This document shows, in pieces, positions 7,331 through 12,720 of a stretch of DNA of 64,000 nucleotides. Origin of the DNA: Prochlorococcus sp. AG-409-A10 (GTDB lineage: Bacteria > Cyanobacteriota > Cyanobacteriia > PCC-6307 > Cyanobiaceae); the NCBI GenBank assembly GCA_003216175.1, contig QCJG01000001.1, forward strand, positions 248,001-312,000, read 5' to 3'. The notes beneath the pieces were generated by a model. It saw only the letters and a list, made by a program, of their open reading frames with translations. It ran no database searches and was not told the origin of the DNA. Numbering within the stretch: the first letter of the stretch is position 1; each line of letters opens with the position of its first letter. The translations under genes were made by a program, and so were the position numbers.

Positions 7331-7466
7331 AATCCATATGAACAAAGAAAATGGTATTAACTAGTACATAAATTAAAAAATATTCTTTTGAAAATTTATT
7401 TTCGTATAAATAAAGACAACTGAAGTACTAAAAATCTATGAAATTCGCAATAGTCGTTTCAGAAAA

Positions 7467-7640
7467 GTGCGCTTTGCTATTAGTTTAGGAATGTTAATGG
7501 GTATGATTCATGGGTGGTATGTAAGTAAAGGTTATGCATCTACAAACCAATATAATGATACTTATTTTCAGTCTGAGATTAACCAACTTCCCACCTACTC
7601 TTTTTTGAAATCTAAAAATACAGGATTGAGTTTTAATTGA
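7467..7640 (+). CDS. Small hydrophobic protein of unknown function
   Basis: A 57-codon frame starts at a GTG (7467) and ends at TGA (7638-7640). It reads VRFAISLGMLMGMIHG and on to WYVSKGYAS, then a polar tail ending NTGLSFN. The first part is one short membrane helix or signal-anchor, followed by tyrosine- and asparagine-rich sequence. The frame remains open upstream to 7410 with no better start; ATGs at 7491 and 7497 are alternatives. I do not recognise a family. It stands alone in an otherwise empty gap after moaA. Real coding status is uncertain. Confidence 0.4.
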   Translation: MRFAISLGMLMGMIHGWYVSKGYASTNQYNDTYFQSEINQLPTYSFLKSKNTGLSFN

Positions 7641-7847
7641 TTTAATTTAGAATTATAATAAGTAAAATTTATAAAAGTAACTACAGTCAATACAATTTAC
7701 TTTTCTGTTCATTGATTTTTTTTGTATCAAGCTGAACCACTTTTAAGAGCTTAAAGCATTATTATGTATTAACTAATACAAAATTCTTCTTGTTAGATCA
7801 GCTCGGGTCTTCTTTAGAACTTTTGCATAGTTCATCACTCTATTCTC

Positions 7848-8021
7848 ATGGATCTCCTTACATACAGAGGTCAAAAATATCTACCTGAAGACATTAAAAA
7901 TCTTCACTACTCAAATACGAGTTATCTAGATAGGCAAATCAAAGCCAAAATGACCATCAATGAGACTCTATTTTCTTATAGAGGCATAAATTATAAAAAA
8001 TCAAAACATACAGAAAGGTAA
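7848..8021 (+). CDS. DUF4278-like small protein
   Basis: A 57-residue frame from the ATG at 7848 to the TAA at 8019-8021. It begins MDLLTYRGQKYLP and repeats the pattern near its end as LFSYRGINYKKSK. The tyrosine-arginine-glycine-x-x-tyrosine (YRGxxY) signature at both ends is typical of DUF4278, a cyanobacterial family of very small proteins of unknown function, several of which respond to light or stress in picocyanobacteria. The gene lies alone between moaA and the NtcA-linked leader. Function unknown; the family call rests on the short motif. Confidence 0.6.
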   Translation: MDLLTYRGQKYLPEDIKNLHYSNTSYLDRQIKAKMTINETLFSYRGINYKKSKHTER

Positions 8022-8113
8022 AAGATTAAGCAGTCAAATATTTTGGAAGAATTTTTAAATACTTTTGTATTACGCTGAACAACACTGCTCTTAAAAGATA
8101 ATCATAATAAATA

Positions 8114-8129
8114 TGTAGTCATTACTACA
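8114..8129. promoter_or_regulatory. Perfect palindromic NtcA box upstream of structured leader
   Basis: The sequence TGTAGTCATTACTACA has the NtcA consensus GTA-N8-TAC (8115-8128) and is a perfect palindrome with 6-base arms. NtcA is the cyanobacterial global nitrogen regulator. AT-rich -10-like hexamers (such as TAATAA, 8105-8110) lie just upstream, which would put the box at the start of transcription and immediately before the structured leader at 8134. That position suits repression rather than class II activation. The site is seen directly; the mode of action is inferred. Confidence 0.65.
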
Positions 8130-8133
8130 AAAA

Positions 8134-8193
8134 CGTTCAACTCGCTTCAGCGAGCCGCAAACCGCCTTAAGCCAAGGAACGGGGGACTTAAGC
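8134..8193 (+). ncRNA. Structured leader resembling the Downstream-peptide / glutamine riboswitch motif
   Basis: Pairing seen: P1 CGTTC (8134-8138) with GAACG (8177-8181); P2 CTCGC (8141-8145) with GCGAG (8150-8154) around a TTCA loop; and a possible pseudoknot of CTTAAG (8166-8171) with CTTAAG (8187-8192) just 3' of P1. Cyanobacterial glnA and Downstream-peptide RNAs, known L-glutamine aptamers, share the CGTTC...GGAACG closing stem, a P2 hairpin right after it, an AAG before the closing strand, and in the Downstream-peptide class a pseudoknot with downstream sequence and a short reading frame after it. The purine-rich joining sequence expected after P2 (GGAAGTA-like) is poorly matched here (CCGCAAACCG), so ligand binding is uncertain. 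Confidence 0.42.
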
Positions 8194-8213
8194 TAAAACG
8201 ATCCAAATTAAAC

Positions 8214-8528
8214 ATGCCTACAAGTTCCATACGAAGCACTGAAAAAAGTGCCATTACTGTTTCAGCAGGATTTTTAGGAGCATTCATTATTAGTTCTTTA
8301 GCTGTTCAGCTTTTTAGAAGCTATTCCCCTGCTGTTCAAAATAAATTAACTACTGTTGACCCAGTAATTGCTAGTCCTGCCACTCTTTGGTCTGAACTGG
8401 GGACACGAGATAACATTATTATTGAACAATCAAATACAAAATTAAATACAAATAGTTCAAGTTCTATCAATATTGAACCTGTAATAACCTCTGAGGCAAC
8501 TTTATGGTCTCCTCTTTTTGTTGATTGA
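8214..8528 (+). CDS. Small membrane protein with a duplicated C-terminal motif
   Basis: The 104-residue product starts at the ATG 21 bases after the structured leader. It has a polar N terminus, one membrane helix at about residues 15-34 (around AGFLGAFIISSLAVQLF), and a tail in which the motif DPVIASPATLWS (49-60) is repeated as EPVITSEATLWS (88-99), separated by an Asn/Ser-rich linker. I do not recognise a family. The leader, with a palindromic NtcA box and glutamine-riboswitch-like folding, and the position between moaA and napA point to nitrogen-responsive expression. It is not similar to the small basic glutamine synthetase inactivating factors. Function unknown. Confidence 0.65.
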   Translation: MPTSSIRSTEKSAITVSAGFLGAFIISSLAVQLFRSYSPAVQNKLTTVDPVIASPATLWSELGTRDNIIIEQSNTKLNTNSSSSINIEPVITSEATLWSPLFVD

Positions 8529-8542
8529 TTTTACTCATCTTC

Positions 8543-8566
8543 AATTGATTGATTGATTGATTGATG
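8543..8566. repeat. Short GATT tetranucleotide repeat
   Basis: Directly after the stop of the small membrane protein, the unit GATT occurs about five times in tandem. It is a simple-sequence repeat in the non-coding stretch before the napA promoter. Copy number may vary between isolates. Confidence 0.7.
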
Positions 8567-8761
8567 CAAGTATGATGAATGAGAATTTAGATTATCAGCA
8601 AAAATTTTAAACTGAATTAAAGAAAATCAATACATTCGATATCTAATATTTTGTATTTTTTGCCACATAGTATTCAAGATCTTGAAATCCTCAGACAAAT
8701 AATTCGTTTTAGTAGCAATAACTACTTAATTAAACAAATAGGTATAAAACTCTCATTTTTT

Positions 8762-8805
8762 GTATCGACTACTACTTAGTCGGAGTATGTCGGCTGATTT
8801 AATTT
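8762..8805 (+). promoter_or_regulatory. NtcA-activated promoter of napA
   Basis: GTATCGACTACTAC at 8762-8775 fits GTA-N8-TAC. TAATTT at 8800-8805 fits the -10 pattern TAN3T, with 24 bases between, matching the known class II NtcA promoter layout (22-24 bases). Transcription would start near 8812, about 68 bases before the napA ATG. This is the expected nitrogen-limitation promoter for the nitrate permease and perhaps narB. Confidence 0.75.
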
Positions 8806-8879: not shown

Positions 8880-10421
8880 ATGCTTGGCAATCTTTGGACA
8901 TTTCAAGGGAGATATCGAACACTTCATCTCACTTGGTTTGCGTTCTTTCTAACTTTTGTTGTTTGGTTTAATTTGGCTCCCCTTGCTACGACTGTTAAGG
9001 CAGACTTGGGGCTCACTTTGGGTCAAATTCGAACTGTAGCTATCTGTAATGTTGCATTAACAATTCCAGCGAGAGTCCTCATTGGAATGCTTCTAGATAA
9101 ATTTGGACCACGTAAAACATACTCAAGCCTTCTCATTTTTTCGGTAGTTCCATGCTTACTTTTCGCCTCAGCAGAAACTTTTAATCAATTAGTTATCGCT
9201 CGCTTATTACTTTCAATTGTAGGTGCAGGATTTGTAATTGGTATTCGGATGGTGGCTGAATGGTTCCCACCTAAAGAAATCGGTCTAGCAGAAGGAATAT
9301 ATGGAGGTTGGGGTAATTTTGGCTCAGCTTTCTCGGCTCTGACAATGGTTGCCATTGCTGGGTTACTTTCTTTTTCAGGTGGATTTGAATTACCAACAGG
9401 TGCCGTTCTTAACTGGCGAGGTGCTATCGCTGGCAGTGGTGTGATTTCAGCATTGTATGGCATCTTTTATTTCTTTAATGTCAGAGATACTCCTCCTGGA
9501 AAAATTTATCAGCGTCCAACTAAAACAGCTGGTCTAGAAGTCACTTCTATGCGAGATTTTTGGGGGCTTTTGGGTATGAATGTGCCGTTTGTAGCCATAC
9601 TTTCTGTTTTATGTTGGAGGTTAAAGAAAGTTGGTTTCCTTGATGAGGGAACATATCCATTAGCTCTTTTCGCTGTTTTAATTTGGTTCGCTTTTCAGAC
9701 CTGGGGGATTATTCGTACAAACTCAGAGTTAATTGCAGGAACTAAAATTTATCCAAAAGAAGACCGTTATGAATTTAAACAAGTAGCCATTCTTGAACTC
9801 ACATATATTGTTAATTTTGGTTCTGAGCTGGCAGTTGTTTCAATGTTACCTACTTTTTTTGAGACAACATTTGATTTACCAAAAGCAACAGCAGGTATTC
9901 TCGCCTCCTCCTTTGCTTTCGTTAACCTTGTTGCACGTCCAGCTGGAGGTCTAATTTCTGACAAGCTCGGAAGTAGAAAAAATACTATGAGTTTTCTAAC
10001 CGGAGGACTTGGAATTGGATACCTTGTCATGAGTTGGATCAAACCTGGTACTTTTTCAGGTATAAGTGGAATTATCGTCGCATTGTTCATAACAATGCTT
10101 GCTTCCTTCTTTGTTCAAGCAGGGGAAGGCGCTACTTTTGCTCTAGTACCACTTGTTAAACGAAGAGTTACTGGACAGGTCGCTGGTCTTGTTGGTGCCT
10201 ATGGCAACGTAGGAGCAGTAACTTATCTAACTATTTTTAGTCTTCTACCTATGTGGATGAGTGGAAGTGGAGAAGCGACAGCAGAGATAATTGCTAATTC
10301 CAATAGTGCCTTTTTCCAAATCTTAGGAATAGCAGGGCTGATAGTTGCATTCATGTGCTTTTTCTTTCTTAAAGAACCAAAAGGATCCTTCGATGAATTA
10401 CATGAAGGGGAAATTGCTTAA
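8880..10421 (+). CDS. napA: Nitrate/nitrite permease, major facilitator superfamily
   Basis: The 513-residue, roughly 12-helix protein belongs to the NarK/NrtP group of nitrate-nitrite porters. It has the nitrate-signature-like segments GIRMVAEWFPPKEIGLAEGIYGGWGNFGSAF (about 119-149) and, in the second half, an equivalent region around EGATFALVPLVKRRVTGQVAGLVGAYGNVGA (about 417-447), plus the MFS loop motif LDKFGPRKTY. Marine picocyanobacteria use this single protein (called napA or nrtP) instead of the NrtABCD ABC transporter. It stands directly before narB and behind an NtcA promoter, so it should import nitrate under nitrogen limitation. Confidence 0.93.
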   Translation: MLGNLWTFQGRYRTLHLTWFAFFLTFVVWFNLAPLATTVKADLGLTLGQIRTVAICNVALTIPARVLIGMLLDKFGPRKTYSSLLIFSVVPCLLFASAETFNQLVIARLLLSIVGAGFVIGIRMVAEWFPPKEIGLAEGIYGGWGNFGSAFSALTMVAIAGLLSFSGGFELPTGAVLNWRGAIAGSGVISALYGIFYFFNVRDTPPGKIYQRPTKTAGLEVTSMRDFWGLLGMNVPFVAILSVLCWRLKKVGFLDEGTYPLALFAVLIWFAFQTWGIIRTNSELIAGTKIYPKEDRYEFKQVAILELTYIVNFGSELAVVSMLPTFFETTFDLPKATAGILASSFAFVNLVARPAGGLISDKLGSRKNTMSFLTGGLGIGYLVMSWIKPGTFSGISGIIVALFITMLASFFVQAGEGATFALVPLVKRRVTGQVAGLVGAYGNVGAVTYLTIFSLLPMWMSGSGEATAEIIANSNSAFFQILGIAGLIVAFMCFFFLKEPKGSFDELHEGEIA

Positions 10422-10494: not shown

Positions 10495-12720
10495 ATGACA
10501 GAGAAAATTGAAAATTTAACTACTCAATGTCCATATTGCGGCGTTGGATGTGGTCTAGAAATGCAACCACCAGCTGAAATCGGAAAAGCAGTACGTAGAG
10601 ATGCAGATGGTTATCCAATGTGGAGGTCTAGAGGCGATCGCAATCATCCATCCAACCTTGGACAAATATGTATTAAAGGTGCAACCGTAGGAGAAAGCTT
10701 GTCTCCAGGGAGATTAAAGCAACCTCTGTATCGAGATGATTTAAATGATAAATATCAACCGATTAGCTGGCATGAAGCTACAGATAAGATAGTTTCACAA
10801 ATCAAAAAAAGTTTACTCAAAAAAGGTCCAAACTCTATAGCGATGTATGGTTCTGGACAATTTCATACTGAAGACTACTATATTGCTCAAAAATTACTCA
10901 AAGGAGCTTTAGGTACAAATAATTTTGATGCAAATTCAAGACTATGTATGAGCTCAGCTGTCGCTGGATATAATTTAAGTCTTGGATCAGATGGTCCTCC
11001 CTGTTGTTATGAAGATCTTGATCACTACACCGTTGCATTCCTCATTGGCACTAATACAGCGGAATGCCATCCAGTACTTTTTCAACGTCTACTCAAAAGG
11101 AAAAAACAACATCAAGATAAAGTAAAAATTATTGTTATAGATCCAAGATTAACAGACACTGCAAAAGCTGCTGACATTTATCTACCTATTGCTCCAGGCA
11201 GTGACTTAGCCCTGTTATATGGTATTGCCAATTTAGTTCTGAAAAATAATGGACAAAATGCAGAATTTATTAAAAATCATACAGATAAATATTCAGAATT
11301 CTTAGCGATTATAAAAAATTGGACTCCTAGAAAAGTTGCTCGCTTTTGTGGTATCCCAGAAAAAAAATTAGAAGAAGTAGCTAATATGTTTAATCATCGC
11401 GAAAGGGTACTAAGTCTTTGGTCAATGGGTGTAAATCAACGCAGAGAAGGTACTGCAGTTGTTGGGGGACTTATCAATCTACATCTTCTCACGGGACAAA
11501 TCGGGAAAGAGGGAGCTGGACCTTTTTCGCTTACTGGCCAACCAAATGCTATGGGAGGACGTGAAGCAGGAGGCCTATCTCATCTACTTCCTGGTTATCG
11601 AAATGTTGCCAATAAAAAACATAGACAAGTCGTCGAAAATCACTGGGATTTTCCGGCTGGAAGTATCTCTGAAGAACCAGGTTTAAACGCCTGGCAACAA
11701 ATTGAAGCAATGGAAAAAGGAGAAATAGATCTTTGGTGGGTTGCTGCAACTAACCCACTTGTAAGCATGCCTGATCTAAATCGAGTAAAAGCCGCAATAA
11801 AAAACTGTTCCCTAGTTGTTTTATCCGAAGCATATGAAGATACTGAAACCTCTCATTATGCCCATCTATTATTGCCGGCTGCACAATGGAGTGAGAAAGC
11901 CGGTGTGATGACTAATTCAGAAAGGCGAATCACTTATTGCCCAGCTTTTCGTCCATGCTTTGGTCAAAGTCGTCCCGATTGGGAGATATTTGCTGAAGTA
12001 GGCCAAAAACTTGGATTTATTGATCAGTTTACTTATGATTCTTCTGCTGAGGTATATTCAGAGTTTACAGCTCTGACAAGTGGTCGTCTCTGTGATAGTT
12101 CGGGTCTTAATCATGAATTACTAACAAGTGTTGGTCCCCAACAATGGCCATTTTCAAAAGGAAGTAATCCTACGAAAAAAGCCAAGCGACTTTATGAAAA
12201 TAAAAGGTTTGAGACACCTAATGGTCGAGCCCAGTTTTACACTAAACAACCTCTGGGAATCGCTGAGCCTCCATGCGATATGTACCCGTTAGTCTTAACT
12301 GTTGGGCGTTACCTCGGACAATGGCATACCATGACTCGTACTGGAAAAGTAAATCGACTTAATAAAATGCACCCTGAACCATTACTTGAAATTCATCCTA
12401 TGGATGCAAAAAATATGAATATTAAAGATGGTGAGTTATCTGCTCTTAATTCTCGTCGTGGACATCTTACAGTACGTGTAAAAGAAACTGATCGTATACG
12501 TCGAGGCACAGTTTTTCTCCCAATGCACTGGGGCTTCACTCAAACTAATCATTGTGAGACAAACAACTTGATGCATGAACAATCATGTCCCATATCTAAA
12601 CAGCCTGAACTAAAAGCAAGCGCTGTAATTGTGGCTCCAGTGAATCCAGTCAATCAACCACTTGAAAACAATGAAAAAGGATTTGTTAAATACGTAAAAG
12701 AAATCGTAAATATGAAATAA
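10495..12720 (+). CDS. narB: Assimilatory ferredoxin-nitrate reductase
   Basis: NarB reduces nitrate to nitrite with electrons from ferredoxin. The 741-residue protein has the N-terminal [4Fe-4S] motif C12-x2-C15-x3-C19 with C59 in GQICIKGATVGESL, and the molybdenum-ligand cysteine in NSRLCMSSAVAGY (C151). The molybdopterin oxidoreductase domain and the C-terminal dinucleotide-binding domain (about residue 600 on, FLPMHWGFTQTNHCETNN) follow. No signal peptide is present, as expected for a cytoplasmic assimilatory enzyme. It requires Mo-bis-MGD made by the neighbouring moa/moe/mob genes. A strong hairpin separates it from napA. Confidence 0.97.
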   Translation: MTEKIENLTTQCPYCGVGCGLEMQPPAEIGKAVRRDADGYPMWRSRGDRNHPSNLGQICIKGATVGESLSPGRLKQPLYRDDLNDKYQPISWHEATDKIVSQIKKSLLKKGPNSIAMYGSGQFHTEDYYIAQKLLKGALGTNNFDANSRLCMSSAVAGYNLSLGSDGPPCCYEDLDHYTVAFLIGTNTAECHPVLFQRLLKRKKQHQDKVKIIVIDPRLTDTAKAADIYLPIAPGSDLALLYGIANLVLKNNGQNAEFIKNHTDKYSEFLAIIKNWTPRKVARFCGIPEKKLEEVANMFNHRERVLSLWSMGVNQRREGTAVVGGLINLHLLTGQIGKEGAGPFSLTGQPNAMGGREAGGLSHLLPGYRNVANKKHRQVVENHWDFPAGSISEEPGLNAWQQIEAMEKGEIDLWWVAATNPLVSMPDLNRVKAAIKNCSLVVLSEAYEDTETSHYAHLLLPAAQWSEKAGVMTNSERRITYCPAFRPCFGQSRPDWEIFAEVGQKLGFIDQFTYDSSAEVYSEFTALTSGRLCDSSGLNHELLTSVGPQQWPFSKGSNPTKKAKRLYENKRFETPNGRAQFYTKQPLGIAEPPCDMYPLVLTVGRYLGQWHTMTRTGKVNRLNKMHPEPLLEIHPMDAKNMNIKDGELSALNSRRGHLTVRVKETDRIRRGTVFLPMHWGFTQTNHCETNNLMHEQSCPISKQPELKASAVIVAPVNPVNQPLENNEKGFVKYVKEIVNMK

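Follow-up and report, generated by a model that had tools for sequence, protein, structure and literature searches.

Type 2 glutamine riboswitches are reported to activate expression in the presence of glutamine (PMC6316151), and ligand-induced stabilisation of a pseudoknot has been proposed as their control event (PMC6698751). The Glutamine-II targets described in sequenced genomes are mainly inhibitor-like DUF4278 (IF17-N-like) proteins, the usual products resembling part of a glutamine synthetase inactivating factor (PMC6316151). For a different small protein of the nitrogen pathway, repression of nirP1 by an NtcA site lying over the transcription start has been proposed (PMC10907346). In nitrate uptake, the ABC nitrate transporter is inhibited through PII (PMC6603209), and NrtP has been stated, with citation of work on Nostoc NrtP, to be without post-translational regulation (PMC4390861). 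How nitrogen assimilation is restrained in marine picocyanobacteria has been described as unclear (PMC6316151).

We analysed a 64-kb stretch of Prochlorococcus DNA (the window) in which a sequence-only reading had proposed an undescribed nitrogen-responsive unit, composed of an NtcA box, a glutamine-riboswitch-like leader and a small membrane protein for which we use the working label X. The features of this locus are collected in Table 1. When covariance models were run over the whole window, the sole Rfam match was to RF01704 (Glutamine-II), which aligned end to end with the leader at 60.9 bits (E 2.9e-12; gathering score 33 bits), while the type-1 glnA glutamine riboswitch model (RF01739) reached 22.4 bits, below its cut-off of 35 bits. 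Of the two types named by the sequence-only reading, the Downstream-peptide one was recovered, and the positions it had given for the perfect palindrome, P1, P2 and the pseudoknot were all exact, those of the three helices coinciding with the RF01704 match. Our own model R1, which was built without the window sequence, scored the window at 59.4 bits. The reading had staked its proposal on conservation of the stems among relatives, and they were kept: in 28 related aptamers, 98.2% of the cells in the three helices were paired, against 88.0% in shuffles, with two-sided changes at 8 helix pairs and a covariation score that was reached by none of 500 shuffles. Judged by sequence and pairing, the leader is by class a true Glutamine-II (Downstream-peptide) riboswitch, and we infer that it responds to L-glutamine. 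The aptamer ends 21 nt 5' of the X ATG in the window, and in all complete Prochlorococcus X loci its position would fit a 5' UTR element controlling the gene that follows. When ligand-bound and ligand-free folding were compared, the X start codon was without clear sequestration in the ligand-free fold, and this comparison gave no sequestering hairpin common to both Prochlorococcus groups.

Table 1. Features of the X locus, with positions in the window
Feature	Position	Strand	Basis
57-aa ORF (ORF57), hydrophobic N-terminus MRFAxSLGMLxGxxHGW	7467-7640	+	synteny
57-aa DUF4278-like (N-terminal-IF17-like) protein	7848-8021	+	PF14105 E 1e-4, just under curated cut-off
NtcA-like imperfect site TGTATTACGCTGAACA (GTA-N8-AAC), 21 nt before the -10	8066-8081	+	kept in both Prochlorococcus groups, same spacing
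Probable -10 hexamer CATAAT	8103-8108	+	aligned -10 consensus of 40 cassettes
NtcA palindrome TGTAGTCATTACTACA (predicted operator over inferred transcription start)	8114-8129	+	position kept in complete Prochlorococcus X loci
Glutamine-II riboswitch aptamer	8131-8192	+	Rfam RF01704; own model R1
P1 of aptamer, CGUUC / GAACG	8134-8138 / 8177-8181	+	
P2 of aptamer, CUCGC / GCGAG	8141-8145 / 8150-8154	+	
Pseudoknot of aptamer, CUUAAG / CUUAAG	8166-8171 / 8187-8192	+	
X, 104-aa single-pass membrane protein with duplicated PV[IV]-[AGT]-S-x-A-T-L-W motif	8214-8528	+	ORF, purifying selection
NtcA-type site AGTAGCAATAACTACT upstream of napA	8711-8726	+	conserved in related loci
NtcA-type site TGTATCGACTACTACT upstream of napA	8761-8776	+	conserved in related loci
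napA/nrtP, MFS nitrate/nitrite permease	8880-10421	+	Pfam MFS_1
narB, nitrate reductase	10495-12720	+	

The palindrome in front of the leader matches the GTA-N8-TAC pattern and directly abuts the riboswitch. The stricter form TGTA-N8-TACA occurs twice in the 64 kb (0.95 sites expected by shuffling), here and at 7765-7780; the looser GTA-N8-TAC form occurs nine times, with one site at 7354 and four within 7766-8762. We aligned 40 representative Gln-II loci bearing the palindrome on that element and found it near-invariant (TGTAGCAACnGCTACA), with a consensus -10 of TATAAT at -12 to -7 from it and, in 29 of the 40 promoters, a GTA-N8-AAC element (often GTATC-N6-GAAC) 48-49 nt upstream of it. All three elements are present at X, with the aptamer directly after them. 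The conserved -10 ends about 5-6 nt short of the palindrome, and the start of the intact aptamer follows 1-3 nt behind the palindrome. Production of an intact aptamer from this -10 requires that transcription start at or before about 8134, so that the palindrome overlaps the inferred start. The NtcA-type site at X thus appears, from this predicted start, to be placed for repression, and we infer that NtcA represses X. In the Gln-II promoters the GTA-N8-AAC element is as far from the -10 as a class II activator site would be, and at that spacing NtcA might also activate the X promoter; a dual NtcA site is one possibility.

The napA gene downstream is preceded by a different arrangement, in which the more proximal of its NtcA-type sites lies 22-24 nt upstream of an AT-rich -10. 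This is the spacing of NtcA-activated promoters. With a palindrome over the putative start of X and an activator-type site before napA, X and napA are predicted, given the start sites assigned here, to be regulated by NtcA in opposite senses. The two napA palindromes are exactly 50 bp apart, and both are kept among relatives.

The DUF4278-like ORF immediately 5' of X shares its promoter layout, with GTA-N8-AAC at 7723-7738, then TATTAT, and an NtcA palindrome at 7765-7780; a search for a riboswitch before this ORF gave no Rfam match, and its promoter would be a sister to that of X under NtcA alone. We also observed, elsewhere, a second group of non-typical Gln-II targets (L004 1322-1486, L006 1320-1484, L196, L199 and L180) that encode 54-58 aa with an MNNL or MNTL start. 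These have weaker aptamers and no clear NtcA palindrome, and in one copy the end is formed by a DUF4278-like YRG segment.

We then ran model R1 over 100 loci around X homologues. Every one of the 23 complete X loci, which belong to two Prochlorococcus genera, had the aptamer and the palindrome with the same spacing. In the window's own genus, the aptamer lay about 20 nt 5' of the X start in 8/8 complete relatives (a ninth is cut by a contig end), and in the second genus (g18) it lay directly 5' of X in 15/15 intact loci, separated from the first in-frame ATG by about 5 nt. The pseudoknot is kept between the two groups despite sequence divergence (CUUAAG/CUUAAG versus UUGAAG/CUUCAG), and at one of its pairs both partners have changed. 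Genome G374 contains two nitrate clusters as well as two copies of X, both of them with the aptamer; MIT0604 is an HLII strain with two nitrate clusters (PMC6370341), and G374 is presumably that strain. The same model gave no aptamer near X in any of the 73 loci from genera other than Prochlorococcus, where the best score was 18 bits, inside moaC. The absence of the riboswitch from Synechococcus X genes suggests that X there may have a role that needs no glutamine signal. Glutamine control of X would appear, on these sequence comparisons, to have been captured specifically in Prochlorococcus, and such a capture is new as far as the literature shows.

The sequence-only reading had described the product as a membrane protein outside recognised families with a duplicated motif, and both points were upheld. 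X has one strongly hydrophobic segment (maximum Kyte-Doolittle value 2.02), no cysteine, and two motif copies, PVIASPATLW and PVITSEATLW (PVIxSxATLW). Searches for relatives in Pfam, NCBIfam, PHROG and PDB gave none, with matches at chance level (e.g., CbtB 0.014 and Psb35 0.098), and 25 X relatives likewise matched no Pfam family at a meaningful score; X had no match to PF14105 (DUF4278), and no homologues were found in phages and viral contigs. Relatives were present in 106 of 400 Cyanobiaceae genomes. In this family an N-terminal segment, RSPxxxAAGFLGAFVVGSLAVQLVRS, forms one membrane helix and is joined through a variable linker to the C-terminal motif V-x-PV[IV]-A-[HS]-x-A-[TA]-[LM]-W-x-x-L-G-x-R, which occurs once in forms of 60-75 aa and twice in forms of 99-113 aa, the window's among the latter. 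The dN/dS of X was 0.10-0.16 in Synechococcus, and about 0.5-0.6 in the window's genus and 0.2-0.8 in g18, so that constraint is clear in Synechococcus and relaxed in Prochlorococcus by comparison. In other cyanobacteria we saw single-pass proteins whose C-termini read P[HS][QE]AxxW...G (L217-L221); as these are encoded away from nitrate genes, the X-like family may not be confined to nitrate.

Three described proteins were considered as identities for X. Genome G246, which we take to be that of WH7803, the strain of SynWH7803_1012, has an X gene at 2.3 Mb that encodes about 74 aa, and SynWH7803_1012 is therefore probably a different gene. That gene encodes a 112-aa single-pass protein and is strongly down without ammonium (PMC9430850). 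NirP1 and PirN were rejected since both are reported to be absent from Prochlorococcus (PMC10907346 and PMC13205821, respectively).

The placement of X within a nitrate island, which the sequence-only reading had also noted, holds by synteny well beyond the window: X lies inside the nitrate cluster almost everywhere. The gene order is moaA-ORF57-DUF4278-X-napA-narB in the window, moaA-X in g18, and napA-narB-narM-ORF57-X-moaC in Synechococcus types. ORF57, for which no known family was matched, lies on the 5' side of X in most Synechococcus-type nitrate clusters and is a neighbour of X in most picocyanobacterial ones. In g9 genomes X is beside nirA and focA, and in two distant genomes outside the Cyanobiaceae a clear relative is flanked by nirA and nrtP.

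In a sample of 209 narB-positive picocyanobacterial genomes, X was present in 102/116 genomes that also have napA and in 1/93 that lack it (Fisher p 1.5e-42, a test that counts related genomes as independent, so that p overstates the number of events, although X was found in 15 genera). Several of the apparent exceptions are located at contig ends or belong to g9, where X was recovered by profile search. Truncated copies of X without the riboswitch occur in three g18 genomes that lack both narB and napA (L144, L152 and L155), and are apparently relics of a nitrate cluster since lost. As for X being a universal NrtP subunit, only 1 of the 11 NrtP loci checked outside the family had an X-like ORF next to it, and the 10 loci without one argue that X is not an obligate subunit.

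We consider it somewhat better than an even bet that synthesis of X is confined to nitrogen-replete conditions and that the protein serves as a brake on nitrate assimilation, holding back NapA/NrtP. According to this model, NtcA, active under nitrogen limitation, would bind the palindrome over the start and block transcription of X. The transcript would begin with the Glutamine-II aptamer, and its expression would follow only once L-glutamine stabilises the pseudoknot. Under these two locks X, as a single-pass membrane protein, would accumulate only under nitrogen sufficiency and would there restrain the permease with which it is evolutionarily linked. The contact with NapA and the inhibitory effect are putative steps of this model, and the target could be NarB or another product of the cluster. 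More broadly, and quite tentatively, X might be the founding member of a small membrane family that switches off MFS-type NrtP/NapA permeases when nitrogen is plentiful; we would sooner doubt than assert this wider claim.

The same switch might serve a different target, with X acting at the membrane on NarB or on nitrite handling instead of on the permease. Such a target would suit the position of X next to narB, narM or moaC in most Synechococcus-type clusters, and also its nirA, focA and nrtP neighbours in g9 and the two distant genomes, but X is absent from 92 of the 93 genomes that have narB without napA, which means that the permease, and not the reductase, predicts X; we regard this reading as unlikely. 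The tight co-occurrence of X and napA would also be expected if X were a helper of NapA, needed for its assembly, stability or basal activity in nitrogen-replete growth on nitrate, and the Synechococcus X, which is without the riboswitch, could be made together with its cluster. However, the wiring in Prochlorococcus predicts that X is low exactly during NapA induction, and most NrtP genes outside picocyanobacteria have no adjoining X-like ORF, and a helper role seems to us improbable.

It is also conceivable that the regulation has merely hitch-hiked, the NtcA and Gln-II cassette of a DUF4278 gene having landed before X by chance and with little effect. An identical cassette layout does precede the DUF4278 copy of the same genome (L001) and those of many relatives, but the cassette before X is intact in two divergent Prochlorococcus groups, with changes that preserve pairing, and we consider a chance landing very improbable. 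Restraint of NapA/NrtP by X is the reading we prefer, and a conserved, napA-linked and glutamine-switched membrane protein would be a concrete candidate for the missing control of NrtP.

Measured against the described systems, the claim of an undescribed unit stands for the protein and its link to nitrate but not for the RNA class or for the layout of NtcA site and riboswitch, both of which were already known, the layout recurring before DUF4278 genes (also PMC6316151). What appears to be new, with an earlier mention possible, is the target, a transporter-linked non-DUF4278 membrane protein, together with its family and its near-exclusive tie, among picocyanobacteria, to the MFS nitrate permease. 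The X leader is like other members of the RF01704 class in aptamer sequence, P1, P2 and pseudoknot, in the several copies per genome and in the NtcA palindrome in front; unlike them, it precedes a non-DUF4278 membrane protein in a nitrate cluster, which would carry the regulon of these riboswitches beyond inhibitor-like DUF4278 proteins and into nitrate uptake. The gifB gene for IF17 of Synechocystis and PMM1846 of Prochlorococcus MED4 likewise combine an NtcA-type site and a glutamine riboswitch with a small protein (PMC6316151). However, IF17 inactivates the soluble enzyme glutamine synthetase, whereas X is a membrane protein without DUF4278 that tracks the nitrate permease. NirP1 resembles X as a small nitrogen-pathway protein with an NtcA site over the transcription start (a predicted start in the case of X), but it has a conserved cysteine and is reported to be absent from Prochlorococcus (PMC10907346), whereas X is cysteine-free and spans the membrane with a helix. 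Finally, PII-NrtC/NrtD, like the role proposed for X, stops nitrate uptake when nitrogen is plentiful (PMC6603209), but it acts on the ABC-type nitrate transporter, whereas X is linked to the MFS permease NrtP/NapA instead. If the wider claim of a permease-silencing family is true, X would stand in picocyanobacteria as the counterpart of PII-NrtC/D control, placed in Prochlorococcus under a directly glutamine-sensing RNA.
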